Positions 3,701 to 63,749 of a stretch of 64,000 nucleotides of DNA are shown here, one piece after another. This DNA comes from Paraescarpia echinospica (taxonomy: Eukaryota > Annelida > Polychaeta > Sabellida > Siboglinidae), in assembly GCA_020002185.1 (NCBI GenBank), contig CM034539.1, positions 27,478,721-27,542,720 of the forward strand, given 5' to 3'. The notes beneath the pieces are model-generated. The model was given only the letters and a program-made list of their open reading frames with translations, had not been told where the DNA came from and searched no databases. Within the stretch, counting starts at the first letter, position 1, and every line of letters starts with the position of its first letter. A program made the position numbers and the translations under genes.

Positions 3701-6230
3701 TACATATGCTTACTTTGGTTGTTACATATGTTTACTTTGGTTGTTACATATGTTTAATTTGGTTGTTACCCCTGTTCACTTTGGTTGTTACGTGTGTTTA
3801 CTTTGGTAATTACATCTGTTTTCTTTTGTTGTTACATATGTTAATTTGCGTCACTTTGTGGAGCGCAGTAGAGAATTGCTTAGAGCTTTGGACTCTCGAC
3901 CGAGAGAAGCCGAGTTCGAATCCTGTGTGGTGTTGTCGAACCTTGGGCAAGTTCGTTCACTCTACGTTGCTTCAGTGCACTCAGCTGTATGAATGAGTAC
4001 CTGGCTATAGGCAGTGGTGGATACTTGTGTACGAATAGTCTTCGCGCATTAATTTCAGCGTGGCTGGATGTTTCCCAGAGAAGTCGAGATGGTGTTCGGT
4101 TAAACAAGTCTGCTAGGGAGTAAAGTGTAAAGCGCTTTGAGCAATCCTGAGGACTGGATACTGCGCTATAGAAGACCGTACATTTACATGTTTTCGAGGA
4201 AGCGAGGAAAGTCGACAACATTAACAAAGAAACACGTACACAATCGTATCGCGCATTTACGTGACGATGCCAACTTTGATAATTATTCGAATTTTCAACA
4301 TATTTGTTGCACAGTTGAACCTACATCAGATTTTCTTTATCAAATACGGGTAACTTCCACGATAGCGACCAATTTTGGTCTTAGTGCGCAGTCTCCCATA
4401 CCGCAGCAATTTGTTTTGTATGTTGTTGATATTATGTAAATCGTTATTATAAAATTTGTATCTTAGTATTCGTATGCATGTCTGTATAATTTATGTTTCT
4501 GCTATGGATAAATTAAATGCAATCAATCAATCAATCAATCAATCCCTCCCTCCAGATGTGGACGTATTGGGGAATGGGTAGAGTAAATCCAGGTGCCTAA
4601 ATTGATTAATTGTTGACAATTTCCATTTACGTAAATAACATATGTTGCATTTTGAGTAGATATCATGTCATTGATTAATAAATACTAAAAACTACAGGCT
4701 TCAAAACCTTCGGTTAATTTTCATTTGAAAATTACATTACCATTCTTAGTTCTTCGTGCGTTTATATTTTCAACCAAGGATATTCAAACGGAAATTATTT
4801 ATTATCACAAAATGGGGAGCGGTAGAACAGATGCACGCGTTATGTTATAAAACCCGTTTTTTTGCATCCAATTTTGGTGTCGGGCCCCTAATCTAGAATT
4901 CCAGATTTTGTCGGGCCCCTAATCTAGAATTCTAGATTTTGTTAGGTGGTTGGGTAAATGTAAGCCTTCTAGACTTCTATTGCGATGCTTAGAAGTACGA
5001 ACAAGCAATTCTTACACAGAAGTGTAACCATATATATATATATATATATATATATACAGTCAGCGTCATCAGTCTTTGACACATGCACTGAATATGAAAC
5101 GCATTCGGCTAGTAACATATAAATGGTTGCGTAAATCTCGTTTTCGGCATATACATGCTCAGCATTTCATCTTCACACCATAACATCGTCCATCTCATCG
5201 CGCATCTCATCGATCACCGCAACGCACATCGTCCGTCGCATCGTCTATCGCATCGTCCATCGCCCAATGTGTTATCGCCCCGTGGCGTTGCGAATATTCA
5301 CACACAAAACGATGGCTCTTCTAGACCATCATAGGAATGTGTTTAATAATAAAATATAAAAAATGTGCATAGGTAATGTTTTCAGCATGCGCGTGTGAAT
5401 TGCGGCATCTTTATAGCATAGCATCATCCATCCCATCGCCCATTGCATCGCCCACCGCATCGCGCATCGCAACGTCCATCGCATCGCGCATTGTCCATCG
5501 CATCGCCCATCGCATCGCCCATCGCATCGCGCATCGCTCCATCGAAATTTCGAATCGACCATCGCGCGTCGCTTCATCGTTTCGTGCATCGCATCGCACA
5601 TCGCTCCATCCCGTCGCGCATCGCTCTATCACATCGCACATTGCATCGAGCTTTGCTAATCGTATCGTCCATCGCATCGCGCACCGCGTCATCGCCCCCT
5701 GGCGTTGCGAATTTCCACACACAAAAAACCGAAGGCCCTTCTCGGCCACGATGCTAAAGGATAGGGCGTGCTCAATGGTGACTTCTCACACACAGTCACT
5801 AGGTGTCGCAATAAACTGCGCAGAATCTGCACAGAAAAGGTCGACCAAAAGCGGCCTTAAATACTGTGACGGAGAGGTTAAAACAGTTTTTGAATCACAG
5901 AACACTAAGTAGTCTAATGTCTCTTTAGAGTATATTTAATTCAGTTTGGGAATTAAAAGGTTCATTTCACTTAGTCTTTAAAAGCTTCCTAGTGGCATAA
6001 ACTCCCTGGGGGAGAGTTTAACCTATTTAGTCCTCGTCTGGGTAAATGAAAAACAACATACCGGTGTCGCTGACGCACTGATCTTTCATACCGACCGTAG
6101 TTAACACCCCTTCATATGTCTTGCCAACTCCGCAGCCGCAAAATTCGTCATTTATGCATTCCATTGCAGACCCGCATTCGTCACTATTGCACGACTCGTT
6201 TCTCCTACCTGGAAAACATTGTATTACTAG

Positions 6231-6279
<49 letters not shown>

Positions 6280-6295
6280 GCTGCTGCTGCTGCTG

Positions 6296-6332
<37 letters not shown>

Positions 6333-9300
6333 CAGTCAGTCTGCCTGGGACATCACATATTCGGCAAGATAAATGAGAACAGACAGCGACTTCTTGAATT
6401 CTGCTCCTAAATCACCAACTTCTTTTTTCAAACGAAGCCCCAACACAAGGCATCCTGGAGAAACCCACGATCCAAGCACTGGCATCAGACGAAGGTTCAC
6501 CGCTAACAACTTGAAGGAAAATCTAGCAAAGACGTGAGCAAAAAAGTAAAACGGTAAGTTTTTATATAGCGCATTATCCACTAATCAGTACTGTTCAAAG
6601 CGTTTACACTTTACTCCATGACAGACTGTTCACTCTAACACCATCTTGACTTCTCTGGGAAGCATTCAACCACGCTGCAATATCCACTGTTCACTGCTAG
6701 GTACTCATTCATAGAGCGGAGAGAACTGGAGCAACGTAGAGTGAACGAACTTGCCCAAGGTTCGACACCGCCGCACAGGATTCGAACACGTGTTCTCTCG
6801 GTCGAGAGTCCGATGCACTAGCCACTGCTCACTGGGAACACCATCGCTCGCCCAGCCAAACAATGCTCCAGGCGCTCCGAACAGTCAGGAGCAAAGTCCC
6901 GCAGACTGCAAGACGCTGTGCGAACGAATACTGGCTCCAGATATGCGAGGACATCCAGCGGTCAGCTGAAACAGGCAACACTGGTGCCATGTACGACGGC
7001 ATCTAGAAATCCATGGACCATGCCAGGAGTAAGTCAGGTTTTCTATAGAGTAAGGCAGGTCATCTATAGGAAAGCACTTTGAAATGATGGAATTCCACCC
7101 AGAATAATCAAGTGCGACAAGAGCACTCCACTCTAAAATGTTTCATCTAAACGCCATATACAACCGAAACTTTAAGGCATTATAGATGGTCGTTGACAAC
7201 TGGGAGGAAATTGCTGCTGACCATTCAACATGGAGGCAGGAACTAAGCAGGGGACGTAGAAGAGGAGAGAGGAACCTCCGCATCCCAGCTGAAGAAAAGC
7301 GCAGCCGCAACAAAAACAGCCAGTCCGAAAGCAGAGTAACGAGTGTAACAGATCCGTCAAGAATTGTCACTCCTAAATCGGCCTGAACAGCCAAAACAGA
7401 CGCTGTTTAAGTACGGCCATAATTACACGCACAAGTGTAATGGTCCAGCCACTTTCTGCCGAGCGCAACCCGAATATGTTTGCGCATGATTAGGTAGTAA
7501 AGTAGGTGGTTTACAATGTACGCCAGAGCCAGTGCAAGTGCAAGAGCAAGTCAAAGTCAAAGGTCAATACCAATGTCAAGATCAAGATAAAAACCAAAGG
7601 TCAAAGATCAAGGTCAAGTGGCGCCACTGGCGAATAGGTGGTGAACTAAACAACTAGGCCTATAAACGCCCCCTTGCGGTAAAAAACTGAAATAGAACTG
7701 ATTAAATTCGTGCCTCTCATTTTGTTCTACTATAAAATAGGTCAAAGACGTTAATAAATAGTTCATTGCGCATGAGCAAAGGTGTCTTTACCATGGCATA
7801 TAGGTGGTGGACCGTTTCTATCATATAAAGCACCCCCTGGCGTGTACATATACAACTATGAAATACATAAAATAAAATATCTTTGAAAATTTATTTTATA
7901 TGTTTTTCGAAGGTCTTACTGCATCGCATATGCTAATGAGATAATGACGTAGGCGCTGACGTGTTCTGTCCTTATTGGTCAATCTGTACATTTTCACGTG
8001 ATTGTTTAGCCCTGTATAAGCCTGGTGCTCTATCAGCCGAGTCATCATTCGTATCACGACGACACCATGGCTAACATCATGTTGAAGACTACCTACTACC
8101 TGTCTCTTGCAACCCTCTAACGTATAAACAGAGTACTACGTTTTACGGTAGCGCCCCTACGTAGAGAAATTTGTTTCATAATTTCACTACCACGACAGTA
8201 CTATGGCTGACTTCATGCTGGAAACACTCAACTATTACACTCCTGCGGCTTTCAGCGACAGTGACAAAGATGCTCCTTCTGTCAACCGACCAGACGTACC
8301 GTCAAGAATCTACGCACCGGAACCGGAACCTCAATCTGAACCGGAGGTCGCTGTGAAACCGAAATGCGTTGAATTTTCTGGGGCCGACTCTCCCTTGTCA
8401 AACGTTTTCCCATGTCGGACCGAAGCATTCGGTCGGGTGTTTAAACACGCCTATTAATACAGAAAGGCACTTAACAAAACGGAAAAGCAAGCATATTGGG
8501 GAGACGAGATCTGGTTGGAACGACGTCCATGTTCACAGGATGCGGCATTTGCTGCTTGCAAAGTTCAAGGCATCATAGGATTGGAGAGCCGTATAGTTGG
8601 CAACTGAAAATGCTGAACTGGTGCCGCTTGTACCATCGAAAGAAGGCTTTTGGGGAATTGGACATGGCGACAAAAACGGTTGAAACACTCTCGGGAAACG
8701 TTTGAGCAATGTGCCCGACAACTACTTGTAGACACCGCAACTCGTGAAACAACAGAGCAATAACTAACTTGTTTGCCGTTGTTATTTTAAAGTACAAGCA
8801 AGGGATGAATACTACTGAGAATAGTCGTGATTTAATTTGTTTATCCGATGTGACGTCACAATGCGTTGTGTATTTTGGATTGACTGTCTGATGTCATGAT
8901 TACGTGATTCTCATAATCCTATATAAGAATGTAGCAACTAGCTCATAGTTATTTGTATCACGACAGTGTTATGGCAAACTTCATCCGTCCTGACTTTTCG
9001 ATTTCACTAGTTTATAGGTATGATTGTGTAGCATTAAGATACTTTTGAAAACACGACGTCTAAAAAAACAATCGTTCGTACTTTTAAAAGATCGCGCGTC
9101 GGACCACTCTGACCCAACCTCCCGTCGCCGCCCGCGAGGAGCCCATGGCCCCGCCACGTGTGAAACCGTCGGCACCGCCTTCATGTGCGGCATTCACCTG
9201 CACGGACTGCTCCACGGCTTTCAGCAGGAAACGACGCCCGCGGACGTTGTGGCCGCCCGAAGAGGTCGGAAAGGAAGCCAAGTTGGCTACGCTGGTGGTG

Positions 9301-12300
9301 AGTCATACTTTATAGTGTGTTACTATATGTTTTCACATAAAATAGCGGCCCCCACGCACTTCCTATCAACGTGGGTGGCTTCCCCTGTGTGTTTACTTCC
9401 GCTAACAGGCCGTCTCTCATGTACTTCCTGTCACTGTATCCGCTCCAGTGGCATTACTTCAGTTAGAGGCGGCTCCCTGCCTTTATTTAGTATATGGTCG
9501 GTGCTATCTAACTGCTGGTTGCCGCGGTTGCCGGTTGCCGCCGAAGAGGCAGCCAGCTCCGTCCACGGACCCACTCGACCCCGCGGCCCCGACAGTCAAC
9601 CCGAACCAACGATCAACGAACAGTCCGACGACCACCCCGACGCCATTACTGTCAGTGGCCCCGGCGAACAACCCGACGTCATCACCACCGACGAAGCGTC
9701 GGAAGGTTTTGCCCCATTATGCCTGCTGCATGTGCGGTAATACCTTCACCGCAAAGGCTATGGGCACGTCCATGTGAAGCAGGGCTACTGCCAAAAGAAG
9801 TAAGCAAAGGCGAAGTAAAGAACAACTTAAAGAGATAATAGTAAGCTTCAATTTCTCATAGTATTCAGGCCTGTTCTAAATAATTTGCGTTTCGTCAGAC
9901 CATTTTCAAGGCCTGTTACAACGAAAATATATTTTTCTATTACATACCAGTTGACCATACATGATTAAGGGCATCTAGTCGTTATTTTAGCGGCAACGAA
10001 AGGACCGCGCGGCCGCTGCTGTCGCCGCTTCTGCGTCTTCTCCCGCTGTTGCGATAACTATCGGTACGACCACTCCATCCGACGCGAAAGACTTTGCTGT
10101 CATTGAAATGAAGACGTTAGCATGACACATAGCATGTAGCGTCGTTAAGCTGTCAACACTACGCTGTCCCGGTTGCGAGATAGACGATCCAAGTCAATTT
10201 CACCACGATGTCACCAACCAATATTCTAATTTACATGCATTTTGAGGAGGCCGTCGAGGATGTTAATTCAACTGCAGTTTTTAAAGACTGGTTGACTGTT
10301 TTAGTAGAGGGAGGTGTTATCTATCTGACGTATCGTCCGAAGAGTTGTGTGGTATCGAGAGTTGGTTGCGAAATCCTAATTGAGAAGAGTAGCGGAACTG
10401 TGTGAAAGAAATGGCGCTTGCAGTAATGGAGGGTGATCTCGAAATAACGGACTTTGTTTGTCGTTTTGTTCAAAGCAACAATTGTTATTGTACTCGATTA
10501 AAATGTACAAACCTTATCTCAAGTCATTTTATCCTAGTATAAGTACCACCCACTCGTTCATCATTTGTGTAGAGTATGGACATGGCTCACTTGTAATATA
10601 GCACTCAGTTTCGTATCTGAGAGCAAAGTTGATACATGTATTATATTGTATATACCATTAAGGTAATTTAGTGAAATACTCAAGTTTGATAAACAACGTT
10701 AACAGACTTTCAGTCTTTGTTCACATACCTCCAAAACAACCATCGTTGCAGCCATCTTTCATTCCTACTTCCCTTTCAATTTACTATGTCATATAGGTTT
10801 ACAGTTAGAAATTGATTAAAGTCCCCGTAATGCCTATGTTTATAATTAAGTTCACGTATCAATGTTCTCTAACAATCTCTCTCTCTCTCTACAGTTGTGT
10901 TGTTGGTAACTCAGTCACTCACTCACACACTCACTCACACACTCACACACTCTCTCACTCACTCACTCACTCACTCACTCACTCACTCACACACTCACTC
11001 ACTCACTCACTCACACTCTCACTCACTCACTCACCCACTCGCACACTCACTCATTCACGCACACATTCACGCACACACTCACTCACTCACTCACTCACAC
11101 ACACACTCACTCTCTCTTGTCTTGTATATCTTAGGCAAACATTTTAGTGTTACCCATCATTCAATACATAGTTTGACCTATTGACCTATCAAGAAGCGCC
11201 ACCTAGTAACTTTACGTGTCAGTTTGGGGTGAGTGTTTAACCATGGTCTACATTTCATCTAATTCCATTCCCAATTCCCTTTGAACCTATTATACCATAA
11301 GGGTTTACAGTTAGAAATGTACTAATACTATTAATAGTACAACGTGCCTCAAAACCATGACGAACTGCGTAAACATTGACGTATGCCACTGTATTGCGAA
11401 GCTGCACAACTAAGATGCCTCTGTTTTAAAATATGACATTTGTTGTTTCCGAGTCTATCAAAGGCTGCTGATGCTAAAGCTATTCGCCTCCTTCCCCCCT
11501 GCCTCCCTCCCTCCCCACCTCCTTCCTCTGGCATCTACTCTTCTACTGATGGCCACCCACTGGCCAATTTGTTATATCCGGCCTTCTGGTACTCGAAGAC
11601 CAAGTTTCACAGTCGAAGTCGACGTAGTCGGGCTCGTTTTATATCTAAATCTAAAACTCTGTCTCAGTGACGCCGTAACGACCTCTAACCATCTCCCTCA
11701 TCCGTCAACATCCGCTCTATTCATCACCGACCTTTTGTTTATACACTTTCGTCTACAACCACATCAACTGTCATCCGTCAGTTCCTTCAACGAAAGTGTT
11801 GGTGTCCAAAGATAAACTATATAATGTCGAGAAAGTGTTGCAGCAGCGCAAGCGAGGGATAAAAATACAGGTACTGGTCAAGTGGCTAGGGTATTCGTTT
11901 AACAGCTGCATGGACAAGTCATCACTCGTAGCGCATAAAGGCTAGTACATGCAGTTCGAATGACCATTCGTGTATGGAAGAAGATACAACGGAGGTTCAC
12001 TTCTCACAGAGTACTATGACACTGCAAGTATCAGCAGACGTTGGGTGTTGTTTGGAAATTCGTCCCCGAAATCGGAAATCGTCTTCTTTTGTTAATTCGT
12101 CGTGTTACACACCTTTATAGTGGTCAGTATTTATAACCCGACTAGAGTCGACGGAAACTCCAATCTGTGGCCGCCTTTGTTGAGCAGTTGTCGCGGTTAC
12201 CTCTTACCTAATCCGCCGATGAAATGTGGTGAACACTTCGTCTGACTTTTATCTGACATTGCCCAGCAACGCGTCGATGGATTTACATCCCGACAACACG

Positions 12301-15300
12301 TTGACCCACTATGTCACGACTTTGCCGCAACGCATTAGTTTAGTCGGTCAGTGGGAGTGCGGGTTGGTCGAGATTCAATACCCGCACCTTTGGCATAACG
12401 TCTGAGGAGAGACTACATATTTCGGCGTCTTTGTGAACGTTGTGCTTTATGTGGGGAATATCGAAACAGGCTACTACGGTAGTCCCGAATCTCTAATGCG
12501 TGCAATCAACAGAAGCATAAGGACAGCGTTAAAAGAAAAGAAGGTAAAATTGAGCTACAGTGATATCACACAAAAGTGACTATATACATGACACAAAACA
12601 GCTCATTCACCGTGTAATCGTCGAAGCTACAGCGTTTGGTAGGCTTAAGCCGTGAACATTACAAGAGTTGGGAAGTGGAAGAAAAAGCAAGTCGACTCTG
12701 TGGAAGATATGGCGCGGGGCTTTTACTCGCTCTATGTCTATACAAGTATCGTGGAACCACGTGTCGCTGGGGACAGTGTCGTCCCTCTGTTGAGGGTTGC
12801 ACCCTTAGAAGGCAAACACGGAGACATGGTGTCAAAACGTTTCGACATCGTGCAATACCTTCCCGTCTTGCACAGATAATTCACGACTATCGAGATCGAT
12901 ATAAGAGACGACACGGACGTCGCGTACCATTTGAACGTGGTAGAGTAACGATGACGCTACATTATCGATGACGCAAGCCATCGTTTTTTGAAATATGAGT
13001 CGCAGTCGCACCTACGAAGACTATTACGTCAGATAAGTCGATGACGGATTACCCGTGTTTGTTGGGGCAAGAGTGCAACAAAGTCAGTCTAGGTAGTTTA
13101 TTCGGCGGCCTCATTCGAAGTGCTTTGTCAGTTTCGTGTGCAATATGCAAGTCACAGGAACAGTGTGCAAGACACACCACGTCGGGAATATTCTGTCTAT
13201 TGTTTGTCAGAAATGCATGAATTGACAAAAAATAAAATTGTGTTGATACTATGGCTGTATGTGTTTTATTTTTAATGAACACAGTCGTCACGACACTCCT
13301 CGTTGTTCCCAATTTCAGTTACAACAACTCTTTTATCAATATGTCACTCTAGGTGGCGTTCAATTAGGATAAGTAAATTTGAAAAATGTTATGATCGAAA
13401 AACAACTATGTCCAAACCATCTACGGAAAAGCACGTAACATATGTTCATTCCAAGAGGCAGCCATCTGTTCGGGGCTCAGTTCCAGTGCTGCTGATAGTC
13501 TCGGAAACAACAAATGCCATATTTTAAAACAGAGGCATCTTAGTTGTCCAATTTCGCAATACAGTGGCATAGGTCAATATTTACGCAGTTCGTCATGGTT
13601 TTGAGGCCCGTTGTACTATTAATAGCATTAACTGTAAACCTGTATGGTATATAGATTCAAAGGGAATTAGGAATGGAATTAGATGAAATGTGGACTATGG
13701 ATAAACACTCACCCCAAACTGACACGTAAAGTCACCAGGTGGCATTTCGTTATAGGTCAATAGGTCAAACTATGACATGAATGATGGGTAACACTAAAAA
13801 TGTATGCATAAGGGATCCAAGTCCATAGAGAGTGAGTGTGTGAGTGAGTGGGTGAGTGAGTGTGAGAGTGAGTGAGTGTGTGAGTGAGTGAGTGAGTGTG
13901 TGTGTGAGTGAGTGAGTGAGTGAGTGAGTGAGTGAGTGAGTGAGTGAGTGAGTGAGTGAGTGAGTGAGTGAGTGAGTGAGTGAGTGAGTGAGAGGAGGAG
14001 GAGGAGTGAGTGAGTGAGTGAGTGAGTGTGCGAGTGAGTGGGAGAGAGTGAGTGAGTGAGTGAGTGAGTGAGTGAGTGAGTGAGTGAGTGAGTGAGTGAG
14101 TGAGTGAGTGAGTGAGTGAGTGAGTGAGTGAGTGAGTGAGTGAGTGACTGCGTTACCAACAACACAACAGGAGAGAGGGAGAGATTATTAGAGGACATTG
14201 ATACGTGAACTTAGTTATAAATATAGGCGTTAGGGGAATTTAGTCAATTTATAACTGCACACCTTTATGACATAGTAAATTGAAAGGAAAGTAGGAATGA
14301 AAGATGGCTGCAACGATGGTTGTTTCGGAGGTATGTGAACAAAGACAGAAAGTCTGTTAACGTTGTTTACCAAACTTGTTTATTTCACTAAATGCTCTTA
14401 ATGGTATATACAATATAATATACGTACCAACTCTGCTCTCAGGGTAAGTTTACGAAACTGTGTGCTACATTACAAGTGAGCCGTGTCCATACTCTACACA
14501 AATGATGAACGAGTGGATGGTACTTATTCTAGGAAAAAATTACACAACATAAGGTTTGCACATTTTAATTGAGTACAATAACAATTGTTGATTACGCTAC
14601 ATGCTCTGTATCGTGCTAACGTCTTCATTTCAATGACAGCAATGTCTTTCGCGTCGGAGGGAGTAGTCGTACCGATAGTTACCGCATCAGCGGGAGAAGT
14701 CGCAGAAGCGGCGGCGGCGGCGGCGACGGCGGCAATGCGCTCCTTTTCTTGCCGCTGAAACAATGATGAGATGACCTTAATCATGTATGGTCAATGGTAT
14801 GTAAAAGAGAAATATATGTTCGTTGTAACAGGCCTTGAAAATGTTCTGACAAAAAGCACATGATTTAGAACAGCACCTGAATACCATTTGAACATTATGA
14901 GAAATTGAAGCTTACTATTATCTCTTTAACTTGTTCTCTACCTCGCCGCTGCTTAGCTTGCTTCCTTTGGCAGTAGCCCTGCTTCACATGGACGTGCCCA
15001 TAGCCTTTACGGGTGGAGGTATTACCGCACATGCAGCAGGCATAATGGGGCAAAACCTTCCGACGCTTCGTCGGTGGTGACGACGTCGGGTTGTTTGCCG
15101 GGGCCACTGACAGTAATGACGTCGGAATGGTCGTCGGACTGGTTGCCGGGGCTGATGGGAGCGACGAGGCTGGGTTGGTCGTCGGACTGGCCGTTGATCG
15201 TTGGTTCGGGATGAATGTCGGGGCCGAGGGTCCGTGAACGGAGAAGGCTGCCTCTTCGGCGGCAACCGCCGTTTTATGAATTTATATAAGAATATTTAAA

Positions 15301-18300
15301 TATAATTTACACAGACGCATGGCAGAAAAATAAAGTCGACGCAATAGACGACGTTACATTTTATCACGGAAAACACGCTACTAAAAGTCACGTGACCAGA
15401 TGTCCTGTGACAGGACTGTTGTGTCATGCATTACATGTAAACAAGTACACGGGAAGAGAAATATTGGAAGTTAACACGTGACCGAATAAGGTATACCGGA
15501 ATGTTGACAAGAACAACTACACGGGGACAGACATGTTGGAAGTCGATGCGGCCATTTAGCAGAAGTAAACACAAGGGGGACGCCACGTTGATAGGAAATG
15601 CGTGGGACCCGCTATTTCAGGTGAAAGTATATAATAACACAATGTAAAGTATGACTCACCACCAGCGTAGGTAACTTGGCTTCCTTTCCGTCGTCTTCGG
15701 GCGGCCAGAACGTCCGCGGGCGACATAGCGCTTCCAGGAGTCTTCCCTGCTGAAAGCCGTGGAGCAGTCCTGGCAGGTGAATGCCGCACGTGATGGTGGT
15801 GCCGACGTTTTTACGGGTGGCGGAGCCATGGGCTCCTCGCCGTCTGCGACGGGAGGTTGGGCCAGAGTGGTCCGACGCGCGATCTTTTAAAAGTACGAAC
15901 GATTGTTTTTTAGACGTCGTGTTTTCATAAGTATTTTAGTGCTACATATTTATACCTATAAACTAGTGAAATATAACAAAATTCATAAACACTTACCACA
16001 GGAGGCTCAATATCATTAAGCCCAACGGTCAAGGAGCTGGGATGGGCTCCAGCTACCTCGGCGTAGGAAAGGTCAGGACGGATGATGTTAGCCATAACTC
16101 TGTCGTGGTACAAATAACTGTGAGCTAGTCGCTACAGTCTTATATAGGATTATGAGAATCACGTGATCATGGCACCAGACAGTCAATCAAAAATGCATAA
16201 CGCATTGTGACGTCAAATGGATAAACCAATGAAATCACGATTATTCTCTGTAATATTCATGTGCCTAACCCTTGAGGCAACGTACCAGTTTCATACTTTT
16301 TGCTTGGCCTATTGCCATTTTTGAAAAAACCATAATCAATGCAAAGTCAGTGCTGACATATTAAGTTACTGTAAATAAATATTTATTTCATATATGTTTT
16401 CTGTGTATGGTCTGTTGGATACAACATCATATCATAGGTGGTGAAGAATTTGTGTATTTGGAAAAACTGAAATAATAAAGGGTTGACGCGCACATCCCTT
16501 GCTTGTACTTTAAAATGACAACGGTAAACAAGTTAGTTATTGGGCAGTTGTTTCAGCAGTCGCGATGTCTACAAATAGTTGAAGCGCACATCGCACGAAA
16601 ATTTCCCGAGAGTGTTTCAACCGTTTTTGTAGCCATGTCCAAGTCCCAAAAACCTTCTTTCGATAGGACAAACTCCACCAGTTCAGCATTTCCGGTTGCC
16701 AAGAATACGGCTCTCAAATCCCTTGATGCCTTGAACTTTGCGAGCAGCAAATGCCGCATCCTCTGAACACGGAGATCATTCCAACCAGATGTCGTCTCCC
16801 CAATGTGTTTGCTTTTCCGTTTTGCCAAGGGCGTGTGTTTTGCTGCTTTGATGCGGTCTGCGCATTCGACGTCGCCGTGGTACAATGCCTTTCTGTATTG
16901 ATAGGCGTGCTCGACCGTATTAAACACCTGACCGAATGCTTCGACCCGGCATGGGAAAAAGTTTGACAAGGGAGAGTCGGCCCCAGGAAATTCAACGCAT
17001 TTTGGTTTCACAGCGACCTCCGGTTCAGTTTGGGGTTCCGGTTCCGGTGCGTAGAGGCTTGACGGTACGTCTGGTTGGTTGACAGACGGAGCATCTTCGT
17101 CACTGTCGCTGAAGGCCGCAGGAGTGTAATAGTTGAGTGTTTTCAGCATGACGTCAGCCATAGTACTGTCGTGGTCCTGAAATTATGCAAACATTTGTCA
17201 CTACCTAGGGGCGCTACCGTATAACGTAGTACTCTGTTTATACGTTAGAGACCGGTGGTAGGTTGTCTTCAACTTGATATTAGCCATGGTGTCATCGTGA
17301 TACGAATGACGATCCTGCTCACCGCGCTTATGTATGAATGTGAAAAATAACGTGATCACGGTACCGATTGACTAATGACAGAACACGTCAGTGCCTACGT
17401 CATTATCTGATTAGCATAAGCGATGCAGTAAGACCTTCGAAAAGTACGTACAATTAATTTTCAAAGACATTATATTTTACGTATTTTATAGTTCTAAATG
17501 TACACGCCAGGGGCGCTATATATGATCAACACGGTCCACCACCTATATGTAATAGAAAATATATCACAATTACTTATTAACGTATTTGACATATTTGTAT
17601 AGTAGAAACCAAATTAAAGTCCACGAATTTAAGGAGTACTGTTTCACCGTTTTCCAGCAAGGGGGCACTTATTGACCTTCACTTGCACTATCGCTGGCTC
17701 TGGCTCCGGGTGCAAATGGATATATAATTATTGTCGTTCCTTGTTTATTGCTATTGACAACTGGCAAGGACCAGGACTAGTCTTTTCCCAGAGCATGACA
17801 TATGCCGTTGCCATTAACATGAATAACGTTTTTGCCTCTCCAAAAGGCTATCCAAATGTATGCAGTTTGACAAAAAGTGACAAGCTCGTACATTCTAACG
17901 ATCGGAAACACAAGGGCACACGTGTACACATTGCGTATCAAGCATGGTTTTGATCCATTTTCCGCAAAGCATTTTGCACAAAGTTCAACATTTGTGTGTC
18001 AGGTTCCTCATGGTCATACTGGATGTAGTATGTCATAGTTGTACCTACTGAAGACAGCTGAGGTGTCTAACGTGTCAAAACACTTCCTTTCAACCTGGAT
18101 AGTGGAGTTTTGCAACCTTAATTGAGAGAAATGCAAATAGCTCCAGTTTGTTGGTGACATCGCGATGGAAGTATTTCCAGTTTACTGGCACTTTGTTCCA
18201 TGTTACCTTCCTCAAAGTACCGTTACCACGCTTCTCTCTTGTGGATTATATTTTGATCCTGCTGGCGAGGTACGTGTCCCATACGTCGCCAGTACTGTTG

Positions 18301-26800: not shown

Positions 26801-29800
26801 GATGCGTGTACACCTACAGACAAACAAGCAGACAGACAGACAGAAAACCGTATTGTTTTTTATGATTTATGTCATAATTTATTAATCTAGCGGAGATTTG
26901 TGCTTACCCGCTGTGCGTATAGACAGCGCTGAAAACTGCGCCTCTGTTTGACGACGCCGTAAGGTACACAACGCTCTGAGACAATGAAATCAACATAAAA
27001 CACAACGGTTTTTTTACAAATAATTACAAGTTTTACTAATTATGTGTTTATGTTATATATACTAACAATTACAATAGTAAACTATCATTAACGCAAAGTA
27101 TAATATAAATGGGTCGTGCATACTTTTGGCAGGCACCATGTTTAAGTGGGTCGAAAGCAGGCGCAGGCGTGTGTGCATTTGGCATGCAGACACGTATATG
27201 TAATACGCAAAACGGAACCGGGACTTACTTTCAGACTGGAACTTACTTTTGACACGTGTATAAGCGGGCCGAAAATACGCGCTAACCTTTGGCATGTACA
27301 CGCGCATGCGTAATTTGCAAAACTGAACCGGAACTTATTATAAACAATATAAATATGTACATAACGCCAAATCCCGCAAAATCTAAAATGCTCCAAGATT
27401 ATCATTTAGGTACTAATTACTCTTTTTGCAATTTGATTTCGCAGGGCGCTATATGGAAAAACTGCGTTGCATCGACGGTTGGTATCGTTGGCATTGCGCC
27501 AAGTTTCATAATTTCCAACCAACCTTTCCACAATAATGAATCCACTGTTTCAACTGTGGTCTGTTCAAATAAGTTCAAAAGAAATATTTGTCACTGTAGT
27601 ATTGCTACCACTGCTTGCGGAATAGTATTTTTTACCATATTTAACCAGATTTAACCAGATTTAACAAGATTGCCGTCCATAGCTGTAAGCTCCAGACGGT
27701 ATGAGGACAAGGAAGCCTTTGGCTTATTGAGAATCCAACAATTTTCCACTTACGTATAACCCGCCCTCTCCAGATAGCTGTCAATTTTATTGTTGAACAT
27801 ATTCACACTGCTAGCATTAATACGATCATCAGATAATTTGTTAGTCATTTATTGTCCTCTGAGAGAATGAGTACTTTCTCATATCCAACCTACTCTGTTC
27901 CTTGTCTAATGCTGCATTGTGCTGTCTGATTATACTGTCTTCTTTCGGTTTGAAGACAATATTTCTATCAATATCCTCATAATCATTCAATATCTTAAAA
28001 ACGTAAATTTGGTCTCCTCTTAGTCTCCTAGTCTCTAGTGTTGTCAACCTACATTCTAATAGGCGTCTTTCATAATCAAGATCTTTCAGTTCAGGAATCA
28101 GCTTAGTTGCTCTTCGCTGCACTCTTTCTAGCTTATCTATATCCTTCTTACGACATGGCCGCCATGCTTGTATACACTATTCCAAATGTGGCCTAACTGT
28201 TGCTTTGTAGAGTGGTACAATTAGCTGTTTCTCCTTATATGTGATATTTCTCCTAATTAGCTGCCCTAGTATTTGGTTACCCTTTGAAGCAGCAATTCCG
28301 CATTGCTTCGAAACTTTCATGTCAGCACTAATTGTTACTCCTAATCTTTTCTTTTACAGTTTTACCTAATTTAGTATCACCCATTGTGTATTTTTGTTCA
28401 CATATCCGTGCCCTATTTTGATGCATTTATACTTCCCAAAATTGAATATCATTTGCTATTTTTCAAACCAATTTTGCTAAATCATCATGTAAAGTGTCTT
28501 TATCTGCATCTGTTCTGAACACTTTTGTATCATCTGCGAATTTCAGTACTTCGCTTAATACATCACCATCCAAATCATTTATACATATCAAGAATAATAT
28601 AGGTCCCAACACTGACCCCTCTAGCACTCCACTTAAAACTGGTTTCCAGTTTGAAATCTCCCCTTCTACTATTACTCTCTGTCTTCTGTATGTCAACCAT
28701 GTTTATAGCCAACTGATCACACCATCCCCTATGCCATAGGCTTTTAGTTTAAGTAACAATCTTTGATATGGCATTTATCAAATGCTTTCTGAAAATCTAA
28801 GTAGACAACATCCACTGTTGATCCATCATCTACCCACTTTGTAATTTCTTCTAAAAACGTAAGAGATTGGTTAGATAAGACCTGGCGTTTAGGAACCCAT
28901 GGTGAGATTCATTTATTAATTTGTGTTTTACAAGGAATTCCACCATGTGGTCTCTAATAAGCGTTTCTAATAATTTGCATAAAACTGGTGTTAAGCTCAC
29001 TCGTCTGTAATTCTCTGTCTTGCTCCTCGATCCATTTTTAAATAATGGTGTATTGTTTGCTTCTTTCCATTCTATTGGAATGATTCCCTCTTTAAGTGAC
29101 AAGTTAAAGAATATGGTAACTGGTGTACTGGTTTGGTCTACATTTTCCTTAAGCAGTTTTGGTGGTATCCCATCAACTCAAGGTGATTTGTTTTCTTTCA
29201 TCATCTTAATTTTCTTCGATATCATTTCAGGACTAACAAACAACTGCCGTAATTGCCTCATTAGCCACTCAAGAAAGATCCTGCTACGCATCATTTTGAA
29301 CCGGTTGAAAAAGCAATCAGAAGAACTACTAGCAGAAGCACAGACCGGATTCAGACCCGGAAGAAGTACCACAGAGCAAATCTGCAACTGCAGAATTCTT
29401 ATCGAAAAGCAACTGCAATACATGAAGAACCTGCTCCACAACTTTATAGACGTCAAGACGGCTTTCGACAGGGTGTGGCACGAAGGTTTGTGGCAAGTTC
29501 AGCATTGAAGAAGGCATCACTCAAGTCATCAGCGCACTGTATAATAACGCCAGCAGTGCGGTCCTTCTCAATAACCAAATAGGGGAGTACTTCAAGACCG
29601 CATTCGGAGTCCGTCAAGGTTGCTTTCTGTCGCCGGTTCTCTTCAACATCTACCTCTAGAACATCACGAGGGAAGCCCTCCACAACTTCAACACAATTAT
29701 CTCTGTGTGAGGCAGACCTGTCAGCAACCTGCGATTTGCATTTCTTGGAGGAAGCAACAACGAGCTCCAAGATCTCACCAACAGACTAGTGGATAGAGCA

Positions 29801-32525: not shown

Positions 32526-32557
<32 letters not shown>

Positions 32558-34989: not shown

Positions 34990-37900
34990 TTTTGCGTAGC
35001 CTACCATATCTTCATGTTTGCTATAATAGAAAGTTACTGCCAATCCACCGCTCTACGCCAACATTGAAATTAGCAATAATGTTATTACTAGCAGGAGATG
35101 TAAGTCTCAATCCTGGGCCAGCTGTTAGACGAAACATTCGGATGGCAACTACAAACGTTCGATCTGTACGAGATAAGACAGCCTCACTTTGTGATTGATT
35201 AATTTCAAGGAAAATAAACATTCTAGCTGTAACTGAGACCTGGCTCAGACCACATGATACACCTGCATGCATTGCTGACGTTTCCCCTTCTAGTTACACC
35301 TTTCACCATCGACCACGTTTAGTCGGCCGTGGAGGTGGCGTTGGCTTTCTTATATCACAGCAGTTTAAAGTTAAATTACATTCTGATCCTGAATACTCCA
35401 GTTTTGAGTCCATATGTGCTGACATTTCAGTTTCTTCTTTCTCCGCATACTCTCTTTGTATCTATCGCTCTCCAGGACATCCGGCAAATTTCTTTGAAGA
35501 CTTTCGGGATATGTTGGAAAATCTGGCAGATATTCTTTCAGAATTTTACATTCTTGGTGATTTTAATCTACATTTGGATCCACCTTCTACAACCTCAACT
35601 ACGTTTGATGATATTCTGGCATAATTTGACTTGAAACAACATGTTACCTTTTCGACACATATACAAGGCCATTGGATTGACCTCTTGATAACCCGTTCAA
35701 TTTGTAATAATATCCAAGTACCTACTGTTTCAGATGGGTTATCAGACCACCATACTGTCATTGCCAATATTAACGGTTCTACAGCCCCTTTACAATCGAA
35801 ACACAATGTGTCTTACAGAGCCATTCATAAGATTGACATTACAGCTTTAATGGCTGATATCCTTACATCTGACCTTATCACAGATCCAAAAAAACATTTA
35901 TCTGACTTATATAAACAGTACTGTCAAGTACCCAATGCATTACTTAACAAACATGCACCTATAAAATCCAAATGGGTGTCAGAAAGGCCACCGGTTCCAT
36001 GGATGACTTCCGAAATTATACTATCTAAAAGGCGTCGTCGTTATTTAGAGCGTGTATGGCGCAAATCACGCTCGCCATTAGATAGATCGCGCTATTCTAA
36101 GCAATGTCACCTCTGTAACAGACAAATGGCCAAAGCTAAATCAGATTATTATACAAATATGGTCATCAATAAGTCTGATAACCCGCGTCAGCTATGGAAC
36201 TGCATCAATAACATTCTACACAGACGGCCCATTCCATCGCTACCTGGTCATAATAACTAGAGAACGAATCACATAGAGACTTAAATATTATGTCAATTAA
36301 GTCTCTATGTGATTCGTTCTCTAGTCACTTTAAGAATAAAACCTGAATTATTCGTTCTGCTTTCCCACGTCATAATTTAAGTAAGGTAAATTTGGACTTT
36401 CCACAAGTAAATTCTCTATTTGTATCATTTGAACTTGCAACAGTTGATAAAGTTAGGAAAATAATGATGTCCTCCCCAAATAAATCTTGTGCACTTGATC
36501 CATTTCCGACAATATTGCTAAAAGCATATCTCGATACACTAATTGGACAAATAACAAATATTATAAATACATCACTTTGCTCTGGCTGTTTTCCTGATGA
36601 TTTCAAATACCACCACTTCTTAAGAAGTCATCTCTGCCTAAACAAGATCTAAACAGTTATAGACCTATTTGTAGCCTCAGCTTTATTTCCAAAATACTAG
36701 AAAAGGTTGTAGCAAGTCGTCTAAGGTCTCACATTAGCACAAATGTCTTAACTAATGTGTCACAATCGGCATATAGACAGTTTCATTCAACAGAGACTGC
36801 CCTCTTAAAGGTTCATAATGACATTAACTTGAAAATTAATAATGGTAAAGTGATTGCATTTACCTTACTAAATCTCTCTGCCGCTTTTGACACAATTGAT
36901 CACAACATTCTCATTGAACGCTTATTAAAGTGGTACGGTATATATGGCACAGCTCTAAGCTGGTTTTCTTCATATCTTACTGATATATACCAAACTGTAA
37001 ATATTGGGAACTGCTTCTTAGCTGCACTGCCGGCTTTATTTTGTGTTCCCCAGGGTTCTGCTCTTGGGACTTTGCTTTTTACTCTTTACACCACGCCACT
37101 AAGCTCTGTTATACAAAGACATAACTTGGATTATCATATTTATGCTGATGACACTCAGATCTACATTTCGTTGGCTACCCCGGATACAAATCGCTCCCTT
37201 AACCAACTTAGTGATTGCCTTCAAGATATTTTTCACTGGATGACTGATAGCAAGTTGAAAGTAAATGCAAATAAAACTGAATTGATCATTATTGGTACTC
37301 CAATGCAGCGTAGTAAACTGGATGGTTTTTTTCCTACGCATATTTTGAATCAATATATCACGCCAGCAACCTCGGTGCGGAATCTAGAAGTGATATTTGA
37401 TAGTAATTTATATTTCCGACAACACGTATGTCAAACATGTCGCTGCTGTTTTTATTATATTCGTGATATTCGCCGTATTCGCCGGTATATGTCATTTTCT
37501 GTTGCTAAAACTGTTGCAACAGCGCTTGTTAGCAGCAGACTTGACTATTGCAAATCCCTCCTTTATAGTATCGCTAGCAAGGATATCACAAAACTTCAGC
37601 GTGTCCGAAATTGTCTAGCAAGAGTAGTTACGCGATCTCCTCGTTTTTCTCGCTCTGTACCACTTTTGAAGTCTTTGCATTGGCTTCCTGTACGATATCG
37701 TATACTATTTCAGATCTGTACCATTACATACCAGGCAGTGTTCAGTAAGCAACCCTCTTATTTGCATTCATTGCTTACTCCTGTAAGAAAACCTATCCAG
37801 CTTCGATCATCTAGTTCTGACCTACTTTTTGTTCCTAGAGTCAACACTAACTTGTTCTGTTACTGCACCAAATCTTTGGAATATGCTCCCTCTTAGTGTT

Positions 37901-46234: not shown

Positions 46235-63749
<17,515 letters not shown>

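Follow-up and report, generated by a model that had tools for sequence, protein, structure and literature searches.

Are two long inverted arms, each with a copy of a NADAR-domain gene, and the Maverick/Polinton remnant enclosed between them what is left of a single virus-like element, or did a fragment of a dead Maverick come to lie within an unrelated repeat by chance? The question is raised by a locus of the siboglinid annelid Paraescarpia echinospica (assembly GCA_020002185.1, contig CM034539.1, positions 27,478,721 to 27,542,720 of the forward strand; this whole stretch of 64,000 nucleotides, which is what was analyzed, is hereafter called the window, and coordinates are counted from its first letter). 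The answer favored here, with a probability of roughly one half, is that of a dead, internally deleted Maverick, the arms of which would be its long gene-bearing terminal repeats, the whole case being built on one broken copy at one locus.

An earlier note, made from the letters of the window before any database search, had described arms of about 4 kb around a single-copy spacer of about 2 kb, with the ends placed at 7526 and 17706, and both blastn and an arm-to-arm alignment bear this layout out. The stretch 7656-11460 pairs with 17678-13493 in the opposite orientation (main blocks at 79-89% identity; two arm-versus-arm blocks with a reported E of 0.0 in each of two comparisons), leaving arms of 3.8-4.2 kb around a single-copy spacer of 2.0 kb (11461-13492), and a weak 27/33-base match extends the arm tips to positions close to the ends proposed earlier. 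Across 3,445 aligned base pairs the arms differ by 215 transitions, 224 transversions and 40 insertion/deletion (indel) events:

7656..11460, forward strand: left inverted arm (inverted blastn blocks; arm alignment at 87.3% identity; weak tip homology to about 7522)
13493..17678, reverse strand: right inverted arm (same blastn and alignment; weak tip homology to about 17704)
10143..10472, no strand: stretch of 330 bp in the left arm only (arm alignment)
16261..16495, no strand: stretch of 235 bp in the right arm only (arm alignment)

An assembly artefact was considered and is unlikely, since 13% of sites are different between the two arms, which also carry large indels, namely the two arm-specific stretches listed. 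By eye, the left tip (7526-7620) holds many short GTCAA/AGGTCA-like repeats, incompletely matched on the right tip.

What the spacer represents can be read from its relatives. Its most complete gene belongs to a penton family with 29 members at E<=0.001 (25 in alignment A1 and 19 in A2, the latter without the fusion P0014 and without copies that were shorter or divergent), and of the 16 stretches that matched the pattern in a profile scan of genome contigs with the penton alignment, four encode a relative. An Escarpia laminata symbiont bin contains two of them, L001 and L004, while L002 comes from a Breoghania bin and L003 from the bin of a Bathymodiolus symbiont; all four are animal-type Maverick contigs that apparently contaminate bacterial bins of a species-representative genome collection. 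L001 (11.8 kb) is an almost complete Maverick, which encodes on one strand a PolB that enters at the contig start (matching DNA_pol_B_2 at E 2.8e-9), an ATPase matching Adeno_IVa2 (E 8.5e-5), an integrase with matches to rve (E 3.5e-13) and Chromo (E 3.2e-8), a small open reading frame (ORF), a penton, a PW-type protein, a major capsid protein and a C5-like protease (E 7.7e-4, under cutoff). The names penton, PW and major capsid are our assumption, made from gene order, the fold of the penton family and general knowledge of such elements, because Pfam gave no name to P0008, a penton relative, or to the PW and major capsid proteins of L001; the fold of P0008 matches the adenovirus and mavirus pentons. 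Searched by sequence, the penton-family profile retrieved no solved structure (best E 0.31), and scans of IMG/VR with the penton, P0014, the major capsid and the integrase gave no relative. P0014 itself (Ridgeia piscesae, 633 amino acids (aa)) is a penton fused to a domain matching the L001 major capsid ORF, and is probably an annotation fusion of two adjacent Maverick genes, and L003 holds two integrase-like stretches (5728-6614 and 8731-9708) flanking ATPase- and pz-like genes. Such named relatives of the spacer, a tubeworm protein and contigs in bins of tubeworm and mussel symbionts, make a marine host resembling an annelid or a mollusc likely.

The middle of the spacer (11792-13111) is collinear with L001 7491-8851 in a single blastn match (60% identity, E 7e-74), the matched region lying inside L001 and following the order int-penton-PW, so that the spacer may be laid out as follows:

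11461..11791, no strand: left junction DNA, from arm to Maverick piece (no tblastx row at E<=1 against L001-L004)
11793..11933, forward strand: integrase C-terminal tail with chromodomain (L001 integrase residues 311-359, 53% identity, E 3.6e-9)
12042..12092, forward strand: small-ORF remnant (92 aa in L001) between integrase and penton (tblastn E 6.4e-4; within the collinear match)
12238..12995, forward strand: penton gene, almost full length, broken (tblastn; the family of 29)
12996..13111, forward strand: start of a PW-type gene, truncated (tblastn of 13010-13081 to residues 2-25, E 0.002; end of the collinear match)
13112..13492, no strand: right junction DNA, from Maverick piece to arm (only short tblastx matches of 12-35 residues, best E 0.006)

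The spacer penton matches that of L001 at a tblastn E of 8e-65, and the integrase tail reaches the Pfam Chromo model at E 6.7e-5 (23.2 bits, just under the cutoff of 25.1), which, with the identity to the L001 integrase, makes the chromodomain integrase tail of the earlier note a real one. The two structural-type proteins that it had also placed in the spacer, without saying which, fared in part: a penton is there, but the two best ORFs (12223-12405 and 12618-12971) contain the N-terminal part and, at the ORF end, the C-terminus of one broken penton gene, and what follows it is the PW start. Tblastn of the L001 proteins at E up to 10 detected no polymerase, ATPase, major capsid, protease or integrase core in the 64 kb of the window (the best rows being protease at E 0.031, a match that falls on the small ORF in the spacer, with PolB at 0.68, ATPase at 6.7 and major capsid at 7.5), and Rfam gave no match in the window at gathering scores. 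As PolB, ATPase, major capsid and protease were not found, the spacer is filed as a Maverick-derived remnant and not as a Maverick, but its Maverick/Polinton-derived, virus-like origin, which the earlier note had likewise proposed, is supported by the collinearity with L001 and the fold of the penton family.

The genes of the arms, which read inwards, one arm per end, are the following:

16553..17161, reverse strand: NADAR gene of the right arm, a 202-aa ORF whose C-terminal end is lost by a frameshift (PF08719; TIGR02464; P0001 alignment)
8204..8722, forward strand: NADAR pseudogene of the left arm, with deletions, stops and a frame change (tblastn of P0001; arm alignment)
14895..16095, reverse strand: second arm gene, right copy, probably a split gene with Cys/His-rich segments (ORFs 15886-15656 and 15281-14895; start at 16095)
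8972..9800, forward strand: second arm gene, left copy, degraded (arm alignment)
8052..8072, forward strand: repeated start module TATCACGACGACACCATGGC (alignment and pattern scan)

The NADAR gene that the earlier note had seen in each arm is there, in the right arm by PF08719 (E 2.6e-17; 64 bits, above the cutoff of 35.1; TIGR02464, E 9.2e-19, is just missed at 68.2 bits against 73.7) and in the left one as fragments recovered by tblastn with the relative P0001, although both copies are broken and neither has an intact C-terminal segment. A protein search retrieved, among 63 candidates, four relatives at E<=1e-6 (P0001-P0004; 61-74% identity, all from ENA), P0003 and P0004 being rearranged or partial. 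P0001, the representative of 15 member sequences, passes the NCBI model TIGR02464 (riboflavin biosynthesis intermediates N-glycosidase) at 90.3 bits, aligns with Escherichia coli YbiA (2b3w, E 6.7e-14) and with the solved NADAR 8bau (E 2e-7), and falls into phrog_1017 of PHROGs (E 1.5e-33), a family of unknown function; the anti-phage NADAR model of NCBI, NF053876, gives 47.9 bits for P0001 and 23.6 for the window ORF, far under its cutoff of 240. In the last segment P0001 has an Asp where YbiA has a Glu, a position whose importance for catalysis is taken from the available text of PMC11125620. No NADAR relative appeared in the IMG/VR scans, and the structure of P0001 predicted from five sequences was unusably poor (predicted local distance difference test (pLDDT) score of 42.7).

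Both arms have a TGA stop at the same NADAR codon (left 8681-8683, right 16619-16617, the latter in the original frame and additional to the C-terminal frameshift), where P0001 has an Arg. This stop is either older than the arm divergence or a parallel CpG change (a CpG stands in at least one arm at 213 aligned positions, in both arms at 127 of these, and as CG against TG or CA at 42); the older stop is somewhat preferred here, in which case the NADAR gene would have been truncated already when the arms were last alike.

The second gene lies after NADAR in both arms, its exon limits having been set by eye. It had been called a zinc-finger gene, which was not established: the ORF 15886-15656 matches zf-LYAR (E 0.015) and zf-C2H2 (E 0.08), both under cutoff, the gene has a weak PHROG match (E 0.0088), and its 128-aa segment 15281-14895 has no relative at E<=0.01 in a protein search with 22 candidates. 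Modules related to the one listed are found ahead of starts near 8204 and 8972 on the left and 17287, 17161 and 16095 on the right; those of the arm genes have the core TATCACGAC or CCACGACAG followed by ATGGC, and together they look as though a promoter/start region had been duplicated internally.

How old are the arms compared to the damage seen in the spacer? Between the arms, NADAR has 14, 11 and 19 substitutions at the three codon positions (of 152, 152 and 153 sites; chi-square P 0.33), and the second gene 7, 7 and 8 (of 71-72) and 8, 8 and 7 (of 107-109), the wider span 16095-15656 (11, 10 and 11 of 109-111) having been left out of the codon test as it crosses the probable intron. No clear third-position excess is thus seen, which is what arms that stayed alike up to the death of the element should show; a functional host gene pair was rejected, there being no clear codon-position bias and both NADAR copies being broken. 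At half the arm distance (0.07), the penton gene should have gained 1.7 stops and 3.1 frame changes since the arm split, against 4 (P of 4 or more, 0.09) and 3 (P of 3 or more, 0.59) observed along the path homologous to P0006 (counted by eye on tblastn alignments); the 12 stops of a single-frame reading lie mostly off that path, and this count was not used. Arm and penton damage are therefore of compatible age, with the penton, at 4 stops, somewhat more damaged than expected, so that it may be older.

The compatible age of the damage and the arm divergence without clear codon bias speak for a single element, and so does the layout: the Maverick piece lies centrally between inward-reading arms, and intact vertebrate Mavericks, as far as the available text of PMC8097293 describes them, share this gene order (int-mcp-PW) and possess terminal inverted repeats, mostly with accessory regions on both sides of the core. 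Several points weigh against it. The terminal repeats of vertebrate Mavericks are given in the same text as 46-1,447 bp, shorter than the arms here; no acceptable target duplication was found, there being no 6-bp one at the ends tested (age may have erased it), and the single matching 6-mer pair, GTGCAA, which does not yield matching ends, being about what chance gives by a hand estimate; both ends of the Maverick piece fall within a gene, and 331 and 381 bp of junction DNA lie between it and the arms, so that at least two deletions are needed; L001-L004 show neither a match to the arms or to NADAR P0001-P0004 nor inverted repeats of their own, with L001, L002 and L004 ending at contig ends and L003 being itself broken; the arms and the spacer are seen together in only one copy; and the NADAR gene may, given the common stop, have been truncated by the time the arms were last alike.

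The two mid-gene truncations with junction DNA beyond them, the four contigs devoid of arm or NADAR sequence and the target duplication not found would also suit a chance composite, i.e., an inverted duplication, or the NADAR-bearing long terminal repeats of an unrelated repeat family, with a dead Maverick fragment between them by accident. So would the 15 member sequences behind P0001, owing to which the NADAR gene may be repeated in its own right, and the other mobile elements known to have NADAR domains (PMC12477816, in its available part). Such a composite, however, would have had to place the piece centrally between inward-reading arms, where an interior remnant would be, and to give it damage compatible in age with the arm divergence, and is held to be unlikely, if by no means far-fetched. 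Snap-back and end duplication occur in protein-primed linear genomes, and the locus might then descend from a one-off defective genome, in which one Maverick end was copied inverted onto the other side in replication, the arms being peculiar to this insertion. The absence of arms from L001-L004 would be accounted for, as would an arm length far beyond the reported 46-1,447 bp (PMC8097293, available text), whereas the natural continuity that snap-back predicts at one arm-spacer junction is at odds with mid-gene breaks on both sides, for which further deletions are needed, and this origin seems improbable.

Returning to the dead, internally deleted Maverick, the history of the locus may be sketched. 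A Maverick/Polinton-type (adintovirus-like) element would have entered an invertebrate genome and then decayed. Its living ancestor would have used a chromodomain integrase for integration and a protein-primed PolB to copy itself in linear form, as elements of this family do, with the terminal repeats kept alike during replication; in this working model, the ends of a protein-primed linear genome being kept alike, genes within the repeats stay in two copies. The arms would be terminal inverted repeats grown to about 4 kb, holding an accessory NADAR and a second, probably Cys/His-rich gene as two mirror copies reading inwards from the tips, and the interior would have been mostly lost (polymerase, ATPase, integrase core, major capsid, protease), with the integrase tail, the penton and the PW start remaining. 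The NADAR protein might have removed ADP-ribose from guanine bases and so countered a host ADP-ribosylation response. We infer the link of arms and spacer into one element, the route of replication and integration, and the role of NADAR.

Would such an element matter beyond this locus? Should the arms prove to be true ends, Mavericks would be added to the linear DNA viruses with accessory genes in long inverted ends, and NADAR would join the Maverick accessory set; an ADP-ribosylation-based antiviral response would also be suggested for invertebrate hosts. The wider proposal, i.e., an invertebrate Maverick lineage with poxvirus-like multi-kb terminal repeats and a mirrored NADAR counter-defence gene under a repeated promoter/start module, which would tie animal Mavericks to conflicts over ADP-ribosylated nucleic acids, is put forward tentatively and with more doubt than conviction. 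If arms and spacer are unrelated, the locus would be an ordinary nest of dead repeats. As a single-locus fossil, it leaves the link between the NADAR arms and the Maverick attractive but unproven.

Compared with known systems, the spacer shares with Mavericks/Polintons and adintoviruses the chromodomain integrase tail, the penton and the PW start in Maverick order (a distinctive C-terminal chromodomain of the adintovirus integrase is noted in the available text of a preprint, PMC11071296), but differs in its surroundings: gene-bearing arms of 3.8-4.2 kb in place of the vertebrate repeats of 46-1,447 bp (PMC8097293, available text), core genes and a target duplication that were not found, and a NADAR gene that L001-L004 do not have. 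With the NADAR/YbiA family (E. coli YbiA 2b3w; 8bau) the locus has in common a right-arm ORF over the Pfam cutoff and a relative, P0001, matching both structures, although the window copies are without an intact C-terminal segment. Other NADAR enzymes reverse guanine ADP-ribosylation according to the accessible text of PMC11125620, and NADAR is present in phages, several clades of nucleocytoplasmic large DNA viruses (NCLDV) and RNA viruses of invertebrates (PMC9503650), the available text of this NADAR survey not containing the words polinton, maverick or adinto. Multi-kb inverted ends are also seen in the Yalta entomopoxvirus (8.4 kb; PMC8363768, available part), which is, however, a poxvirus of 219.9 kb, unlike the Maverick-type spacer here.

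No Maverick/Polinton with NADAR or YbiA was found in the searched literature, subscription papers being mostly outside it; a seeming match for NADAR and Maverick, PMC6679389, a paper on transposons, proved to be due to an author's surname. The view of the earlier note that a NADAR cargo had not been described in an animal mobile element was too strong, because NADAR-type domains are reported, in the available text of PMC12477816, from Gypsy elements of Ectocarpus and, apparently, from ORF1 proteins of Tx1 long interspersed nuclear elements (LINEs) of the Pacific oyster. These are, as here, mobile elements with a NADAR domain, but there it sits in retroelement proteins, whereas the window has it as a gene of its own within inverted arms. 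That the NADAR of the window is ORF1 of a Tx1-type LINE was considered and rejected, no reverse transcriptase having been noticed by eye in the ORF lists of the left arm (at least 100 aa), the spacer and the right arm.

Elsewhere in the window there are other repeats. A non-long terminal repeat (non-LTR) retrotransposon lies at 35199-37896, with an endonuclease-like ORF (under cutoff) and a reverse transcriptase ORF (RVT_1, E 2.7e-29), and a second reverse transcriptase fragment at 29011-29508 (RVT_1, E 3.7e-11). Long arrays of the (ACTC)n type are common to the arms (13830-14153) and to 32528-32751 and 54704-55330 of the window, and 58133-58556 and 60353-60775 form an inverted pair of about 420 bp with 80% identity. 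Among the contigs, finally, L004 is 86% identical to the window over 35 residues where the penton begins.

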